DNA of 64,000 nucleotides, taken from NCBI RefSeq assembly GCF_015326965.1, contig NZ_CP017659.1:1116001-1180000 (forward strand). The letters are read 5' to 3'. The DNA is from Paenibacillus sp. JZ16 (GTDB lineage Bacteria; Bacillota; Bacilli; Paenibacillales; Paenibacillaceae). Each line of letters opens with the position of its first letter. Position 1 is the first letter of the stretch. Positions 7,358 to 47,455 of this stretch are shown in pieces. The notes beneath the pieces were generated by a model, which saw only the letters and a program-made list of their open reading frames with translations, was not told where the DNA came from and did not search any database. Position numbers and translations under genes: made by a program.

Positions 7358-9116
7358 TGGCGTCCTCCTTTCCATCTTGTCCAGGGCTTAACGGAATGAA
7401 GAGTTCGACGACCGCCCCGTGCGGATCGTCGTTATAGCAATCCATTACGGCCCCATTCCCATACTGCAGACGCAGACGTTCCCGTACATTCCACAAGCCA
7501 ATATGCGCTCGCCCGGCGTTTGCACCTTGTCCGCCGCAGCGGATCGCCTCCAATACCTCATCCGAAAATCCATCTCCGGTATCACGTACGGTCAAGCAAA
7601 CGGTCGGCTCTTCCGCCAGATCGTCGAGGATCGCTTCAATGACCAGCATCGTCCGAACATCTGCCCTTACGGCATGCTTGATCGTATTTTCTACAATCGT
7701 CTGAAGCATCAGCGGAGGAACAGGGGTCTCCAGCAGATAATCCGGAACATGAATCTCGCTTTCGAATTGATTGGGAAGCCGCAGCTGCTGAATCCGCAAA
7801 TAATTTCTCGTATGCTGCAGCTCATCCTTTAATAGAACCAAAGCCTGATTATTGCTCTGGAACATATATCTGAAGTATTGAACCAGGCAAATCGTCATCT
7901 CCTGGATCAATTCATATCGCTTCACCTGTGCCAAATGGTACAAAATATTCAGGGAATTCATGAAAAAATGCGGGTTGATCTGGAGCTGCAGTTGCTTCAG
8001 CTCCGCCTGCTGCTTGCTCAATTGCTCTTCATAGACGTCAATCTTCAGCTTTTCAATTTGCGACACCATCTGATCTAAGGTGCGATAAACCAGCTGAAAC
8101 TCCTCGGGAGCGGTCGGTACTTTCTCGATTCGCAAATTGAAGTTCCCTTCCCCGATTCTTCGCATTAATTGAACGATCTTCTGCAGCGGGCGAAGCAGCA
8201 CTTTCCGCAGGAACCACAAGCTAACCGGCAGCAGCAGAACAGCGAATGCCGACAGGATGGCAGCCGTCTTTTTGAGATATGGCAGATTTTCGAGCGTCAG
8301 CTTGTCCGGAATGACGGCGACCATGCTGATGTCCGCTTTCTTCGAAGTCTCCCCCACGATGAGATAGTCCTTGTCCTTGCCTGACATGTAATAGCTGTTG
8401 AAACCATGGGTGAAATCCAACGTTTCATCCTGCAGGGGCTTCGTGTTATAAAGCGGCTTCCCCTGGGCGTCGACGAACAGCATTGCTCCGGTTTCACCCG
8501 TGTTCAGAACCGACATCGGCGACATCAAGGTTCTGAGGGATACCCATGACCCGATGCTGATATTGTCATCCCTGAGCACCTTGATCGCGTAATAGGACCC
8601 TTCAATCTCTTGCAGCTGCCAGTTCGCCTCCATTCCATAGAAACGGTTCTGGCTCGTGCTGCTTTCCTGCAGGTAATCTCGCATTTTCAATAATCCGTTA
8701 TAGGTCATCGACCCTTTGTAGGCTTCAACAAAATCATGCCGCGGCAATGAATATACGAAAAGTCCGTCAATATAAGGATAAACCGATAGATCGGAGGACA
8801 GCTTCCGGGAAACATCGCTTTTGGCCATCATATACGTATTGTCCGGCACTGCGTCTTTCATCGTCAGCACACTGACTTCCGATCTGGACAGATTCACCAG
8901 ATGCCGTTCGATCTCCGCGAGCTGGTTATCGATCTGTCTCATTTGGATGGAGATCATATTTTTATTGGAGACCGCCACCTGATTATGAATGACGTTCACA
9001 CTGTAATAGCTCATATAGATCAGTAAGGCGATTAGAGGGATTGCCACGCCCAAAAGGCCAAGCACCAGCTTGACGCGAATCGAATTCCAAGGAATTGCCT
9101 TGATATGGCTGTACAT
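7329..9116 (-). CDS. YesM-type sensor histidine kinase
   Basis: Membrane sensor kinase of the HPK8/YesM type. One membrane helix near residues 15-35 and a second near 285-310 flank an extracellular sensing domain. A HAMP linker follows. The His-containing box is INPHFFMNSLN, and the ATP-binding N box is TIVENTIKHAV, with G boxes DTGDGF and HIGLWNVRERL. It should phosphorylate the AraC-type regulator whose gene overlaps its 3' end. AGGAG precedes the ATG by about nine bases. The signal is probably a sugar or a sugar-loaded binding protein; that is inference from the neighbours. Confidence 0.93.
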   Translation of the reverse strand: MYSHIKAIPWNSIRVKLVLGLLGVAIPLIALLIYMSYYSVNVIHNQVAVSNKNMISIQMRQIDNQLAEIERHLVNLSRSEVSVLTMKDAVPDNTYMMAKSDVSRKLSSDLSVYPYIDGLFVYSLPRHDFVEAYKGSMTYNGLLKMRDYLQESSTSQNRFYGMEANWQLQEIEGSYYAIKVLRDDNISIGSWVSLRTLMSPMSVLNTGETGAMLFVDAQGKPLYNTKPLQDETLDFTHGFNSYYMSGKDKDYLIVGETSKKADISMVAVIPDKLTLENLPYLKKTAAILSAFAVLLLPVSLWFLRKVLLRPLQKIVQLMRRIGEGNFNLRIEKVPTAPEEFQLVYRTLDQMVSQIEKLKIDVYEEQLSKQQAELKQLQLQINPHFFMNSLNILYHLAQVKRYELIQEMTICLVQYFRYMFQSNNQALVLLKDELQHTRNYLRIQQLRLPNQFESEIHVPDYLLETPVPPLMLQTIVENTIKHAVRADVRTMLVIEAILDDLAEEPTVCLTVRDTGDGFSDEVLEAIRCGGQGANAGRAHIGLWNVRERLRLQYGNGAVMDCYNDDPHGAVVELFIPLSPGQDGKEDANASCTDRGR

Positions 9117-14260: not shown

Positions 14261-15226
14261 CTAAATGACTCCATCTTCACCCAGTTTCTTGGCAACCCGA
14301 TCAGCAATTAAGATAAGGACAAGCCCCACGACAGCTTGGAACAACCCGAGAGCGGTTGCTCGGCTGAAGTTGCCGCCTTCAATTCCCCAGCGATATACCA
14401 GAACGGGAATGGTCGTGGTGAACTCCGTCGTTGCTTTGTTCGCTAAGGCAAAAACACGCTCAAAGGAACCCGCCATCACGTGGCCAAGGTTCAAAATCAG
14501 CAATGTCACGATCGTCACTCGGATCGAGGGCAGAGTAATGTTCCACATTTTCCGCCACCGGCCTGCACCATCGACGACCGCCGCTTCATACAGCTCGGGG
14601 TTAATGCCGCTAATTGCAGCCAGGTAGATGATGGTCCCCCAACCCATGCTTTGCCATACGCCAATAAAGATGTAACTGATTAGCCAATTGACGTTCTCTT
14701 GAAGGAACGGGATCCGTGTTCCCCCCAGATTCGCGATCAGATTATTGATCATACCGGTTCCTTCACCCAACAATTGATAAGCGATTGCGCCGATAATGAC
14801 CCAAGACAGAAAGTGCGGTAAATAAAGCAGCGTCTGATTCACGCGTTTGAAGAAAGCGTTCTTGACCTCGTTTAGCAGCAAAGAGAGTATAATCGGCATT
14901 GTAAAGCTAAATATAAGGTCCGACACATTCAGCAAGAGCGTGTTGCGGATGGCGCGAGCGAAATCGGGCTTTGCGAATATGTCTTTAAACACTTCCAGAC
15001 CGACCCATTCGCTGCTCCAGAATCCGTGGGCAATCTTGTAATCCTTGAATGCAAGCACAAGACCGCTCATCGGCGCGTACTTAAAGACCAAGACAAACGC
15101 TAAAGGAATGAGAAGCAGAAAATAGAGCTGCCAATCCCGACGAAGATAATAGAGAGTTCCCTGTTTCTTGCCTGCGAAGGGGATTAAAGCGGTTTCATTT
15201 CCTGGTGCTGCATCTTGGACTTTCAA
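14261..15226 (-). CDS. ABC sugar transporter permease, LplB type
   Basis: First gene of the pectin-type transport operon. About six membrane segments and the EAA loop YEAAVVDGAGRWRKMWNITLP mark it as a CUT1 permease. I chose TTG at 15226 because a near-perfect GGAGGAGGTGAG lies four to five bases upstream. An in-frame ATG at 15265 adds 13 residues but has only poor ribosome-site potential. The 15227-15436 gap would hold the operon promoter; no cre-like site was seen there. Confidence 0.9.
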   Translation of the reverse strand: MKVQDAAPGNETALIPFAGKKQGTLYYLRRDWQLYFLLLIPLAFVLVFKYAPMSGLVLAFKDYKIAHGFWSSEWVGLEVFKDIFAKPDFARAIRNTLLLNVSDLIFSFTMPIILSLLLNEVKNAFFKRVNQTLLYLPHFLSWVIIGAIAYQLLGEGTGMINNLIANLGGTRIPFLQENVNWLISYIFIGVWQSMGWGTIIYLAAISGINPELYEAAVVDGAGRWRKMWNITLPSIRVTIVTLLILNLGHVMAGSFERVFALANKATTEFTTTIPVLVYRWGIEGGNFSRATALGLFQAVVGLVLILIADRVAKKLGEDGVI

Positions 15227-42179: not shown

Positions 42180-43424
42180 ATGCATCATTTTAATGAGGTT
42201 TTCGTGCAGTTGCTGATTTTGCTTGCGATATCGATGGGTGTTATCTCGATAGCCAAAAAAATGAATCAGCCCTACTCTATTGCACTTGTTATTGTAGGCC
42301 TGCTGCTTGGTTTGATCCATGTGCCTGTGTTGGATGAAGCCGAATCGTTTATAACCCAATCGAATGTGTTTCAGGCAATCATTATCTCCCTGTTCCTTCC
42401 TATCCTTCTTGGAGATGCAACATTAAAGCTTCCGTTCTCGCATCTTCGTAAACAAGGAAAGCCGGTGATTGCCCTCGCGTTTGGCGGCACCTTGCTCTCT
42501 TTCCTTCTTATAGCTCTAGCCATGTATGGGTTTATGGGATTGCCTTTGATTGTTGCATTTACCTTTGCAGCATTGATGAGTGCCACGGACCCGATCAGTG
42601 TCATCTCCATCTTCAAATCATTAGGCGTACCGAAGAAAATTGTAACCATCATCGAAGGGGAGTCGCTGTTTAATGACGGAATTGCCGTTGTGTTATTTCA
42701 GATCTCCTCTGTTTATTTGCTCACGTACATGGAAATGGGTTGGGCGGGAATAGGCAGCGGTGTATTGCTCTTTTTGAAGTTTAGTATTGGCGGTATCGCT
42801 GTTGGAGGCGTGTTAGGATATCTGTTCTCACAGCTCATTCGCTTCTATGATGATTATCCGCTGGAGATAGCTTTCTCTATGCTCCTGTTCTTCGGAAGTT
42901 TCTTTATTGCCGAACATTTCCATGTATCTGGCGTCATTGCCGTTGTCGTGGGCGGCTTGATTTTTGGCAGTTACGGAGCGCGCATCGGGATGTCGGATAC
43001 AACCAAGATGAATATTAATTCGTTCTGGGACGTCATCACGTTAATCGCAAATTCATTGATTTTTTTAATGATCGGTCTAGAAATCAAGCATATTAACTTC
43101 GCGGACAAGTGGGCGTTAATCGGAGCAGCCATTCTTATCGTTCTACTCGGAAGAACATTGGCCGTCTACGTAAGCTTGTACTTCCTGAAATCCTTCCCAT
43201 CTTCATGGAAGGTGGTTTTGAATTGGGGAGGGTTAAAGGGCAGCTTGTCAATCGCTCTCGCCTTAAGCTTGCCCCCAACCTTCGACGGACGCGATGATAT
43301 ACTCGTTCTCACCTTTAGCGTTGTCCTTTTCTCACTTCTCGTTCAGGGGTTAACCATCAAACCTTTGGTTAAGAAGTTTGGATTAGCCAGCCCCGTGAAG
43401 GAAAAAGACGGGGCAGATATGTAA
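42180..43424 (+). CDS. CPA1-type Na+(K+)/H+ antiporter
   Basis: Monovalent cation/proton antiporter of 414 residues with about 12 helices. The ion-site motif is ATDPISVISIFKSLGVPKK, followed by EGESLFNDGIAVVLF, as in NhaP/NHE-type CPA1 proteins. It would expel Na+ or K+ in exchange for protons. GAGGGG lies about seven bases before ATG. No cytoplasmic regulatory tail is present. The nearby K+ uptake genes suggest a role in K+ balance, but the ion preference cannot be read. Confidence 0.88.
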   Translation: MHHFNEVFVQLLILLAISMGVISIAKKMNQPYSIALVIVGLLLGLIHVPVLDEAESFITQSNVFQAIIISLFLPILLGDATLKLPFSHLRKQGKPVIALAFGGTLLSFLLIALAMYGFMGLPLIVAFTFAALMSATDPISVISIFKSLGVPKKIVTIIEGESLFNDGIAVVLFQISSVYLLTYMEMGWAGIGSGVLLFLKFSIGGIAVGGVLGYLFSQLIRFYDDYPLEIAFSMLLFFGSFFIAEHFHVSGVIAVVVGGLIFGSYGARIGMSDTTKMNINSFWDVITLIANSLIFLMIGLEIKHINFADKWALIGAAILIVLLGRTLAVYVSLYFLKSFPSSWKVVLNWGGLKGSLSIALALSLPPTFDGRDDILVLTFSVVLFSLLVQGLTIKPLVKKFGLASPVKEKDGADM

Positions 43425-43545: not shown

Positions 43546-44910
43546 TTAACCAATAAGCACTTTCTCTTCAGGCAACCGGTACTTTTGTTTGACTACTCTT
43601 TGCGACAGCGCGAAGGCCAGCGTTAAGGGGCCGAGTCTGCCGATGTACATGGTCAAAATGATGACTCCTTTACCAAAAGGAGACAGCTCAGGCGTCAATC
43701 CCATCGATAGGCCAACGGTGCCGAAGGCTGAGGTCACTTCGAACAGAACTTCCATAAAGTCCTTTTGCAAGCTATGCTCGCTTATGGTTAACAAGAATGT
43801 AGCGACAATCACAACGCTCACTGAGATCACCATGACGGCTATGGATCGGAGGATAATCGATTGGGGGATGCGTCGATTTAACAACTGCACGTCCTGCTTC
43901 CCCTTAATAATACTAATCAATGTGAATAACAGTACGGCAAATGTATTGGTTTTGATCCCGCCTCCTGTGGATCCGGAGGAAGCACCGATAAACATAAGGA
44001 AAATCATGAAAAACTGAGAAGTCGTCATCATCGCGGCTATGTCGATGGTATTAAACCCGGCCGTACGAGTCACCACGCCTTGAAAATAAGCCGCCCATAC
44101 TCGCTCTCCCCAGCTCAAAGAGCCGAACGTACGGGAGTTGAACAACTCAATAATGAAAATTACGATAAACCCGGCTAAACATAGACATGCTGAAGTCGAC
44201 AAAACGATTCTTGAATGAAGGGACAGCTTATTCCACCTTCTATGCTTCCATAAGTCCAGAACAACAGTAAATCCAAGCCCACCAATGATAAAAAGCAGGG
44301 TGATGACGATGTTGACCAGCGGGTCTCCCACATACCGGCTCAAACTGTCTGACCAAAGACTGAAGCCAGCGTTATTAAATGATGAGATGGAGTGGAACAC
44401 CCCATAATAAATAGCTTGCCCCAAGCCCAGTTCCTCCTCCCAACGAACAATTAACAAGGCTGCTCCGACGAACTCGATAATGAGCGCAATCAGAAAAATA
44501 CCTAGCGATAGCCTCACTACGCCTTGCGTTGATAATGCGTTAGTGGATTCTTGGAGGAGCAGTCGATTTTTCAGTCCAATTTTCTTTCCAAGCACAACGG
44601 CGATCAAAACTCCGAAGGTCATGAAACCAAGACCGCCGACTTGAATCAGGCACATGATCATGATTTGACCAAAAAGGGAAAAGTCGGTTCCTGTATCCAC
44701 TACGGCCAATCCGGTTACGCACACTGCAGATGTTGAGGTGAACAAAGCGTTTAACCAACCTACACCTTCACCTGATGACGATGATATGGGCAAGGCTAAC
44801 AAGATCGCGCCGATTACAATCGGTGCGGCGAAACCAAGAAGGATCAGTCGTGAAGATGATAGGTTAAACTGTTTTAATGATTTTAGCGGCTCCGATTTGC
44901 CTTTAGCCAT
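43546..44910 (-). CDS. KtrB/TrkH-type potassium transporter, copy 1
   Basis: Ion-conducting membrane subunit of a K+ uptake system, 454 residues with four M1-P-M2 repeats. The pore loops are readable: SAVCVTGLAVV, SFNNAGFSLW, RTAGFNTID and SAFGTVGLSMG. The gating-loop motif SGSTGGGIKTNT is present. Such proteins need a cytoplasmic KtrA/TrkA RCK ring; none is encoded here. I chose ATG 44910, after AAGGGG; a longer frame to 44988 lacks support. It is divergent from the riboswitch-controlled second copy. Confidence 0.92.
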   Translation of the reverse strand: MAKGKSEPLKSLKQFNLSSSRLILLGFAAPIVIGAILLALPISSSSGEGVGWLNALFTSTSAVCVTGLAVVDTGTDFSLFGQIMIMCLIQVGGLGFMTFGVLIAVVLGKKIGLKNRLLLQESTNALSTQGVVRLSLGIFLIALIIEFVGAALLIVRWEEELGLGQAIYYGVFHSISSFNNAGFSLWSDSLSRYVGDPLVNIVITLLFIIGGLGFTVVLDLWKHRRWNKLSLHSRIVLSTSACLCLAGFIVIFIIELFNSRTFGSLSWGERVWAAYFQGVVTRTAGFNTIDIAAMMTTSQFFMIFLMFIGASSGSTGGGIKTNTFAVLLFTLISIIKGKQDVQLLNRRIPQSIILRSIAVMVISVSVVIVATFLLTISEHSLQKDFMEVLFEVTSAFGTVGLSMGLTPELSPFGKGVIILTMYIGRLGPLTLAFALSQRVVKQKYRLPEEKVLIG

Positions 44911-45038
44911 CCTATTTTCCCCTTTCAGATACGACAGACCATGAAACCCCGTAGACTTCTTTGCGTAGTATATACCATAGTAAAGCATAATTTTTGCTGC
45001 AATCCAATGATATGATGTTGTTGACTGATCGCTAACTG

Positions 45039-45083: not shown

Positions 45084-45223
45084 CATACGCATGAATGCTT
45101 AATCCTCTATGAGGAACGGGGGAACCAACAAAGCGACTAAGCTTTAGGGGTGAATTCTTTCTGGATAAGAAGGAACGGGAACTCTCAATCCCGAATCCGA
45201 CAGCTAACCTCGTCAGCGTCTTG
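45084..45223 (+). promoter_or_regulatory. c-di-AMP riboswitch (ydaO/yuaA class)
   Basis: The conserved blocks of this aptamer appear in order: GCTTAATCCTCTATGAGGAA, CGGGGGAACCAA, AGGGGTGAATTC, AAGGAACGGGA, AATCCCGAATCCGACAGCTA, ACCTCGTCAGCGT. The outer ACGC (45087) can pair with GCGT (45216). This class binds cyclic di-AMP and shuts off gene expression when the ligand is high. A strong terminator follows at 45271. Downstream lie a KdpD-type USP protein and a Ktr transporter, which is the known kind of target. Confidence 0.93.
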
Positions 45224-45270
45224 GGAAAGAACACTCTTACTACTTTGACTTGTCCATGATCCGTACAGCC

Positions 45271-45312
45271 AAGGCCTAGAAGCAGATTTTTCTCTGCCTC
45301 CAGGCCTTTTTT
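45271..45312 (+). terminator. riboswitch expression-platform terminator
   Basis: AAGGCCT and AGGCCTT close a hairpin whose inner part pairs AGCAGA with TCTGCC-like sequence, followed by six T. It lies 31 bases upstream of the first codon, so it would act as the OFF switch of the c-di-AMP aptamer. Confidence 0.88.
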
Positions 45313-45343
45313 GTTAAAGCTGTTGTGTTTAGAAAAGAAAGGA

Positions 45344-46027
45344 ATGATTATTCTGCTTAACAATGAAAAGATACTGGTATGCGTGTATTACGGTCCAAAC
45401 GGAGAACGTCTCATCCGTCGAGGCGGCGAATTAGCCAGACTTCTTCAGTGTCCCCTGTTTGTGTTGAGCGTTATACCCTTGCGTGAAGATGAGCTGGATC
45501 AGGCACAAGAAAGGTATATGGCTGAGTGGCAAATGAAATGCGACGAGTATGGGGCAACCTTCATTGTCAAAACGAATGAAGATCGCAAAGCTTCGGAAAT
45601 CATAGCGGAAACCGCCAAGAATCATCAAATTACCCAGCTAATCATCGGACAATCCGGTCAAACGCGGTGGCAAGAAATTACGCGTGGTTCGTTTGTCAAC
45701 GAACTCCTTAACCAGATCGGCGAAACGGATTTGCACATTGTAGCGGTTCAAAGGATGGATGATCAAATGGCTGACACCCATGAACGGGGAATTCGAGTCA
45801 CTGTGTTCAGGGAGGGTTCTCATTATCTGCTTGGCGGTAAGGAATCCGGGGGCGATCCAATAGCCGAAGGTCTATTTTTCAAAGAGTTAAATACCGATTT
45901 TGACACCGGCTTGCTGAAAATAAAAACAGACCACGAGATCCAATATTTGAAAATAAGTCACGGAAAAGTGGTAGAGTCGTCTTTTTTCCAAAACAGAAAA
46001 TTCTTTGATAAACCCGGCGATCAATAA
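45344..46027 (+). CDS. KdpD-type universal stress domain protein without kinase
   Basis: A 227-residue soluble protein. Residues about 8-135 match the USP domain of the KdpD sensor: ILVCVYYGPNGERLIRRGGELA, then ITQLIIGQSGQTRW and LHIVAV. The KdpD Walker domain, membrane helices and histidine kinase are absent. A C-terminal part of about 80 residues (GIRVTVFREGSHYLLGG to KVVESSFFQN) is unfamiliar. KdpD USP domains bind c-di-AMP in staphylococci, so this could be a stand-alone c-di-AMP or K+ status sensor; that is inference. The ATG at 45344 abuts AAAGGA, so a nearby non-ATG start is possible. The Ktr gene follows closely. Confidence 0.75.
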   Translation: MIILLNNEKILVCVYYGPNGERLIRRGGELARLLQCPLFVLSVIPLREDELDQAQERYMAEWQMKCDEYGATFIVKTNEDRKASEIIAETAKNHQITQLIIGQSGQTRWQEITRGSFVNELLNQIGETDLHIVAVQRMDDQMADTHERGIRVTVFREGSHYLLGGKESGGDPIAEGLFFKELNTDFDTGLLKIKTDHEIQYLKISHGKVVESSFFQNRKFFDKPGDQ

Positions 46028-46045
46028 AGAATGGGGGTGGAACTT

Positions 46046-47455
46046 GTGAGAAGAACATTTATGAATTCAAAAGATCGAAATACACAACATTCCGCTCCTG
46101 ACACAATGGAGTTGTTTATCAACAAGCTTAAAAAAAATATGAGTCCCCCTCAACTCGTCATGCTTGTCTTTTTCACTTTAATAATAATCGGGACCACATT
46201 GCTCGCGCTGCCCTACTCTTCCTCCACCGGGAGGTCAATTGGTCTGCTGGATGCTTTATTTACAGCCACCTCAGCAATATGCGTAAACGGGCTCGTTGTC
46301 TTGGATACCGGTAGTGTTTTTTCAACTTTTGGACAAGTCATTATCATGATCTTGATTCAAATTGGCGGGCTCGGCTTTATGACCTTTGGCGTTATGGTTG
46401 CCATTGTTCTGGGGAAAAGGATTGGCTTGAAGCAACGAATGATTATTCAGCAAACCACGCATTCGACCTCGGCACAAGGTTTGGTTAAATTATCCATGTA
46501 TATGGTACTCATTGCATTCGCGTTTGAAGCCTTGGCTACGATTGTCCTTACGCTCCGTTGGCAACAGGACGTCGGGTGGGGACAGGCAGCCTACTACGCA
46601 CTTTTCCATTCCGTTTCGGCATTCAACAATGCCGGATTTGCCCTGTGGTCTGACAGCCTTTCTCCCTTTGTCGGCGATCCGATCGTCAATATTACGATTG
46701 TCCTGCTATTTATCATTGGAGGCCTCGGCTATATCGTCATTGTGGATGTATTCCAAAAACGTTCATGGAAGAAGCTTTCGCTTCACTCCAAGGTTGTCCT
46801 AGTCGGAACAGGAACGCTGTCCCTGCTCGGTTTTCTATTTATATACTTTTTAGAGAGCTGGAATCCGTCAACCTTTGGCCAATTGAGCGAAAGCGAACAA
46901 GTGCTGGCTGCTTTTTTCCAAGGCATAACGCCTCGAAGCTCGGGGTTTAACACGATAGATATCGGTAGCATGCTGGCGGCTTCTCAGTTTTTCATTATTA
47001 TTCTGATGTTCATCGGTGCTGCTTCCGGAGGAACAGGCGGCGGTATTAAGATCAATACGCTTGTTGTACTCATCCTAGCTACGATCCAAACCTTTCGCGG
47101 GGGCGGTCAAATCCATGCCTTCAAACGCAAAATTGCAGGAGAAACCGTCATGCGCGCCCTGGCGGTTGTCATGAGTTCTTTGGTGGTCGTGCTGGGCGTT
47201 TCCCTGTTGCTGACCATCTCCGAAGGTATGCTCGAAGAACACTTCTTGGAAGTGTTGTTTGAAGCGACATCAGCATTTAGCACCACCGGTTTGTCGATGG
47301 GATTGACAAGTGAATTGTCCCCCGTAGGGAAAGTCATTGTAACGATAACGATGTTTGCCGGTCGTCTGGGTCCCTTAACACTGGCTTACGCATTGGCTCA
47401 GAAAAAACGCACATCCAAAATTGGTTATGCGGAAGATCATATCTTGATTGGGTAA
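46046..47455 (+). CDS. KtrB/TrkH-type potassium transporter, copy 2
   Basis: Second K+ channel-like subunit, about 469 residues. Pore loops are SAICVNGLVVLDT, SAFNNAGFALW, RSSGFNTID and SAFSTTGLSMG, with the gating loop SGGTGGGIKINT. The first loop has VNG where copy 1 has VTG. I chose GTG at 46046 because GGGGGTGG lies five to six bases upstream; an ATG at 46031 lacks a ribosome site. It is the second gene of the c-di-AMP riboswitch operon, so K+ uptake should fall when c-di-AMP is high. Confidence 0.92.
   Translation: MRRTFMNSKDRNTQHSAPDTMELFINKLKKNMSPPQLVMLVFFTLIIIGTTLLALPYSSSTGRSIGLLDALFTATSAICVNGLVVLDTGSVFSTFGQVIIMILIQIGGLGFMTFGVMVAIVLGKRIGLKQRMIIQQTTHSTSAQGLVKLSMYMVLIAFAFEALATIVLTLRWQQDVGWGQAAYYALFHSVSAFNNAGFALWSDSLSPFVGDPIVNITIVLLFIIGGLGYIVIVDVFQKRSWKKLSLHSKVVLVGTGTLSLLGFLFIYFLESWNPSTFGQLSESEQVLAAFFQGITPRSSGFNTIDIGSMLAASQFFIIILMFIGAASGGTGGGIKINTLVVLILATIQTFRGGGQIHAFKRKIAGETVMRALAVVMSSLVVVLGVSLLLTISEGMLEEHFLEVLFEATSAFSTTGLSMGLTSELSPVGKVIVTITMFAGRLGPLTLAYALAQKKRTSKIGYAEDHILIG

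Follow-up and report, generated by a model that had tools for sequence, protein, structure and literature searches.

What is the role of a small, kinase-less KdpD-type protein encoded between a cyclic di-AMP (c-di-AMP) riboswitch and the gene of a Ktr-type K+ transporter? The question is posed by a locus of Paenibacillus sp. JZ16 lying in the 64,000-nt stretch analysed here (C1:1116001–1180000 of a 7.42-Mb, one-contig genome; hereafter the window, to which plain coordinates refer), for which an earlier note, made from the letters alone, had proposed a second, protein-level sensor that might gate Ktr in place of a missing KtrA. We refer to this protein, which combines a universal stress protein (USP) domain with a C-terminal tail, as the USP-tail protein, and to the compared genomes, contigs and loci by our own labels (G, C and L numbers). 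Our reading, which we would accept and doubt about equally, is that it is a nucleotide-binding companion of cation transporters that was recruited to Ktr, while a KtrA or KtrC protein encoded elsewhere continues to gate KtrB.

An Infernal search (cmscan), as the earlier note had suggested, matched the c-di-AMP (ydaO) riboswitch family RF00379 at 45086–45233 on the plus strand, over its full length (model positions 1–134) and well above the gathering cut-off (88.7 vs. 38 bits; E-value of 2.1e-19), and no second Rfam family or copy reached its gathering score in the 64-kb window. The aptamer is followed, before the USP gene, by an expression platform consisting of an intrinsic terminator (hairpin plus T run, 45271–45313, plus strand). 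This terminator is absent from the pattern-scan listing and was recognised by RNA folding as a hairpin of 7+2+5 pairs with small bulges (segment 45264–45318, –21.8 kcal/mol). Judged by eye, all seven other riboswitch-USP loci that were folded also have such a hairpin in the stretch from aptamer to USP gene, the T run of L197 being short (i.e., four T). Further downstream, the gene at 46031–47455 (plus strand) encodes a TrkH/KtrB-type membrane subunit (TIGR00933, 351 bits vs. a cut-off of 331), with no ktrA adjacent. The aptamer, the terminator and the KtrB-type gene had all been called correctly in the earlier note, and its placing of a riboswitch ahead of a Ktr gene is supported by both sequence and predicted structure. 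Seven RF00379 riboswitches were found in this genome in total; two of the others lie upstream of kdpABC plus a gene for a tandem KdpD without kinase (L110) and of a ktrB-ktrA pair (L111), respectively.

The USP-tail protein itself (227 aa, 45344–46027, plus strand; start codon uncertain, as the open reading frame (ORF) opens at 45311) was modelled by AlphaFold with a mean predicted local distance difference test (pLDDT) score of 83.3. Its KdpD-like USP domain spans residues 8–134 (45365–45745, plus strand). Pfam returned only Usp above cut-off (residues 8–124) and did not find the KdpD domain PF02702 in the protein, while the NCBIfam model KdpD_non_kinase was matched only by its USP end (positions 245–371 of 373), all of which agrees with the earlier description of a match to the USP domain of KdpD alone. 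The KdpD-like non-kinase potassium sensors of NF038185 are 37–44% identical in the USP domain (over 127–132 residues, four compared), but the window protein lacks PF02702, carries an extra beta tail and scores 124.6 bits, over the USP end only, against a curated cut-off of 550, which places it outside that family. The window protein shows the five-strand alpha/beta sandwich of the USP fold, with the KdpD USP as its nearest match and TeaD and KimA matching as well; the C-terminal domain of KimA, however, is fused to an unrelated transporter, whereas the window USP is a separate protein. The roughly 80 residues that had been called unfamiliar do lie outside the USP domain, but in fact form a conserved, beta-rich tail of about 90 residues (residues 137–227; 45752–46024, plus strand), as seen in the tail alignment and structure models, with six invariant columns among 43 aligned tails. 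The closest named relatives are from Paenibacillus.

USP-tail proteins were found in 133 of the 394 genomes of the family to which the window belongs (at E ≤ 1e-30), and also outside this family within the phylum. Gene neighbourhoods were compared for 123 loci (i.e., the window, L008, 41 from earlier searches and the 80 new places with the best scores in the family-wide search, with five rows repeating other loci, L009–L012, taken out), in which neighbour names rest on BLAST to reference proteins and mrp genes were verified by Pfam in L076 and L098. The USP-tail gene adjoins mrpA, of an Mrp Na+/H+ antiporter operon, in 100 of them, either as the gene before it (35) or divergently (65). The remainder comprises 5 Ktr loci and 18 classed as other; the latter include L103, which does touch mrpA, some loci that finish near a contig end, and L177 and L180, which are divergent from kdpA. 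Five loci from four genomes have KtrB immediately after the USP-tail gene, namely the window, L071 (G048), L072 (G006), and L073 and L074 (both G002). The genome of the window has an Mrp gene (MNHE at C1:1569139), and no second USP-tail gene was found in it. In a tree of 52 chosen USP-tail proteins, three branches were seen: one with the 14 Mrp-divergent copies (support 100/100), one with the 15 Mrp-first-gene copies (96/91), and a mixed one of 20 (100/97) that contains the copies linked to Ktr or kdp. A single clade of the four Ktr-linked rows is not demonstrated by this tree, in which they group with three window-like rows of unassigned neighbourhood at 64/52. The prevailing Mrp linkage, together with the copies that precede ktrAB or ktrB or diverge from kdpA, supports a role as companion of cation transporters and points to an undescribed family of transporter partners. 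The riboswitch-Ktr part is already known in kind; of a USP-tail family linked to Mrp, or standing in a riboswitch-ktr operon minus ktrA, no description was found in the open-access literature searched.

How such a gene came to stand before this ktrB can be read from the relatives of the transporter. Orthologue-like KtrBs (at least 69% identity) occur in 34 of the 394 family genomes, window included, and the other KtrBs beside them are 43–65% identical. Among the 30 best loci, ktrA lies directly upstream of ktrB in 27, the exceptions being the window, G002 and G006; L071, from another family, likewise has no ktrA there. These clade counts come from related genomes and do not represent independent events. 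A USP gene precedes ktrA in 6 of the 27 KtrA-bearing loci. Five of these were translated: L249 (the same locus as L197) encodes a complete USP-tail protein together with KtrA, L245 and L252 stop after the USP domain and have no tail, the tail of L235 is interrupted by a frame break, and in L236 the frame is broken within the USP part and the tail is missing. The sixth, L246, matches residues 4–142 only. RF00379 was found upstream in all five USP- and KtrA-bearing loci with enough flank (L236, L245, L246, L252 and L197; that of L235 was too short to judge), and in none of the 14 scanned KtrA-bearing clade loci without a USP gene, over upstream flanks of ca. 810–860 nt (the scan took 20 of the 30 loci; the window, L238 and L249 were read from other scans, and L255–L261 lay outside). 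Riboswitch and USP gene thus appear to travel together. Moreover, the order riboswitch-USP-KtrB recurs in three genomes (window, L071 and L072), as the earlier note had wished to see checked, and five more show riboswitch-USP-KtrA-KtrB, one of them with the frame-broken USP. Since all KtrBs from operons without ktrA group together as a clade (support 93/92; seen in 94% of 200 bootstrap trees), ktrA seems to have been lost only once, and the ancestral order was probably riboswitch-USP-ktrA-ktrB, with one clade, including the window, subsequently losing ktrA. An mrpA-like start was seen divergent from ktrA, ca. 630–670 nt away, in 7 of the 30 loci (L250, L251, L253–L256 and L260; by BLAST only, one 77-residue piece being without Pfam match), suggesting that some relatives have Mrp genes next to this ktrAB.

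As an observation on its own, the USP-KtrB operon of G002 is split over two contigs: L073 holds the full USP gene and a KtrB fragment, and L074 the 3' part of the USP gene and the full KtrB gene. The riboswitch is absent from both pieces, and group II intron motifs were seen in L074.

The broken or tailless USP genes in several ktrAB-bearing relatives, and the fact that 21 of the 27 KtrA-bearing clade loci showed no USP gene in their flanks, would fit a mere passenger or general stress protein that does not act on KtrB directly. Against this stand the strong conservation of the protein (53% mean column identity across 92 aligned rows), its linkage to Mrp, Ktr and kdp genes, and the co-occurrence of riboswitch and USP gene, and we therefore consider a passenger improbable.

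The single clade without ktrA also bears on whether the USP-tail protein might have replaced KtrA as gating subunit of this KtrB. The best evidence in favour, and a point that weighs against our own reading, is that the full tail is kept where ktrA was lost (window, L071, L072 and L073) and mostly not where ktrA remains. Nevertheless, L197/L249 carries a full USP-tail protein alongside KtrA, a USP gene occurs alongside ktrA in six relatives, and the loss of ktrA is a single event. Although ktrA is indeed missing from the operon, as had been noted, two other KtrA/KtrC proteins are encoded in all four genomes without ktrA in this operon, that of the window included, and one of the two stands beside another KtrB. 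Furthermore, of the 244 alignment columns kept in at least 95% of 25 KtrA-bearing KtrBs, a single one was altered in at least three of the four KtrA-less proteins, giving no sign of a freed KtrA-contact surface. In Staphylococcus aureus, according to a passage of PMC3791899, KtrC functions with either KtrB or KtrD. The other KtrA/KtrC genes, the unrelaxed KtrB and this precedent together favour gating by a KtrA or KtrC made elsewhere, which on sequence grounds appears likelier than replacement by the USP protein; the proposed gating of Ktr by the latter is conceivable, but we regard a replacement of KtrA as very unlikely. Equally remote is the bolder idea that USP-tail proteins are unrecognised nucleotide-sensing subunits, docked by their tails on Mrp and Ktr, that took over KtrA gating in the window clade.

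Since the earlier note had envisaged a c-di-AMP sensor, the predicted ligand pocket was scrutinized. The c-di-AMP pocket of the KdpD USP is given as (A/G/C)-x-S-x-S-x2-N with Y/F at 271 in the portion consulted of PMC8214093, an earlier motif appearing in an excerpt of PMC4686210. Alignment with 7ji4 (together with column counts for the beta1-alpha1 loop CVYYGPNG, residues 13–20; 45380–45403, plus strand) revealed that the window protein keeps only one of the five pocket residues (the five places read C, Y, G, G and S): C13 is kept, while S244, S246, N249 and Y271 are replaced by Tyr15, Gly17, Gly20 and Ser42. The motif was found at that place in none of the 92 aligned sequences. The G-x2-G-x9-G-(S/T) motif of ATP-binding USPs, on the other hand, is complete (G102-QS-G105-x9-G115-S116; residues 102–116, 45647–45691, plus strand). 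By linkage, it is complete in all 4 copies beside Ktr genes, in 3 of the 100 beside Mrp and in 3 of the 17 remaining ones (omitting the two fragmentary loci L074 and L093). The Asp of the beta1-alpha1 loop of ATP-binding USPs is replaced by Tyr15 in the window protein.

A second, protein-level c-di-AMP sensor in the transcript, lowering KtrB activity at high c-di-AMP, would have to do without this published pocket. Moreover, most of the relatives examined are Mrp-linked, and among four scanned Mrp-divergent loci RF00379 was present in L107 only, and not before the USP gene. However, the motif was likewise absent from all of the 120 best-listed non-kinase KdpD proteins (of 7975 matches), including truncated KdpD proteins of Bacillus cereus and Bacillus thuringiensis whose USP part is 41–42% identical to that of the window, and a Bacillus anthracis KdpD is reported in part of PMC11302148 as a strong c-di-AMP binder in lysates (the sequence of that gene was not matched here). 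A missing motif is thus not decisive for the ligand, and a c-di-AMP sensor, though doubtful, is the most credible alternative to the companion role. On the companion reading, an adenine nucleotide, be it ATP/AMP or c-di-AMP, is the probable ligand of the USP domain.

For the companion role that we prefer, the following mode of action can be pictured. At low c-di-AMP, the riboswitch would permit read-through into a presumed two-gene operon for the USP-tail protein and KtrB. USP-tail proteins would generally be companion regulators of monovalent cation transporters, mostly Mrp antiporters; one lineage of these proteins, with its riboswitch, came to be placed ahead of ktrAB before the window clade lost ktrA. 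The USP domain would bind an adenine nucleotide and the beta tail may dock on the transporter or its gating ring, so tuning flux to the energy or osmotic state, while KtrB would be gated by KtrA or KtrC encoded elsewhere. The working analogy is TeaD, described in an excerpt of PMC9006882 as a USP that binds ATP and modulates the transporter TeaABC. TeaABC of Halomonas elongata, however, is an ectoine TRAP transporter, and the matched TeaD chain has 147 residues without such a tail.

Two other systems resemble the locus in part. The riboswitch-kdpFABC-truncated kdpD operon of B. thuringiensis likewise combines a terminator riboswitch with K+ uptake genes and a kinase-less KdpD-type protein, but the truncated KdpD has 365 aa, the transporter is Kdp, and deletion of the protein left kdp transcription unchanged (as given in part of PMC6488665). 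The ktrAB operon of Bacillus subtilis is also repressed by a c-di-AMP riboswitch, but ktrA is present and no USP gene is named in the passage concerned (PMC11302148).

Turning to the transporter gene and its surroundings, the true KtrB start is probably the GTG at 46046, behind GGGGGTGG. The four filter glycines were located by eye in the alignment, in line with a KtrB identity (CVNG, NNAG, RSSG and STTG). The first loop reads CVNG in 29 of 29 window-clade KtrBs and mostly CVTG in aligned paralogues; the fourth reads STTG in five aligned clade KtrBs and GTVG or GTAG in paralogues. A second KtrB paralogue, 53% identical to the first, is encoded divergently from the riboswitch operon (43546–44988, minus strand; TIGR00933, 394 bits), next to a CPA1-type Na+/H+ exchanger (42180–43424, plus strand; Pfam PF00999) that is conserved as upstream neighbour in L071 and L072.

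Several further c-di-AMP riboswitches were encountered among the compared loci. In L107, one (7783–7907, plus strand) lies past the 3' end of the USP-tail gene (7950–8660, minus strand) and reads antisense through it toward mrpA. Tandem copies occur in L177 (3604–4113) and L180 (3598–4109), in both with kdpA next on the same strand, and at G163 C1:1575434–1575934, G048 C4:58730–59217 and G016 C1:2055788–2056252, where the riboswitches are known by their coordinates and KdpD-type USP matches lie ca. 6 kb away. In L076, one lies between the end of the mrp operon and an alpha/beta hydrolase ORF identified by Pfam (ca. 14596–14753; G015 C32:416571–416728), and riboswitches at a similar distance are found in G034, G003 and G016. 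The first ORF past a c-di-AMP riboswitch is a 136-aa one with a sub-threshold TrkA_N match at L110:5949–6359, and a 148-aa one without such a match at L161:6284–6730. The kdp operon of the window genome ends with a gene for a 775-aa protein (L110:11056–13383) with two KdpD domains by Pfam and a USP match in each half; no kinase domain was found in it, and the c-di-AMP motif is absent from both USP parts.

To our knowledge, little is understood of how Mrp antiporters are regulated, and the mode of action of KdpD-type proteins without a kinase is a standing question. By adjoining mrpA in most of the compared loci and also standing in a riboswitch-Ktr operon, USP-tail proteins become a concrete candidate regulator that may connect the export of Na+ and the import of K+ with adenine-nucleotide signalling, a role that could be tested by binding and uptake assays.
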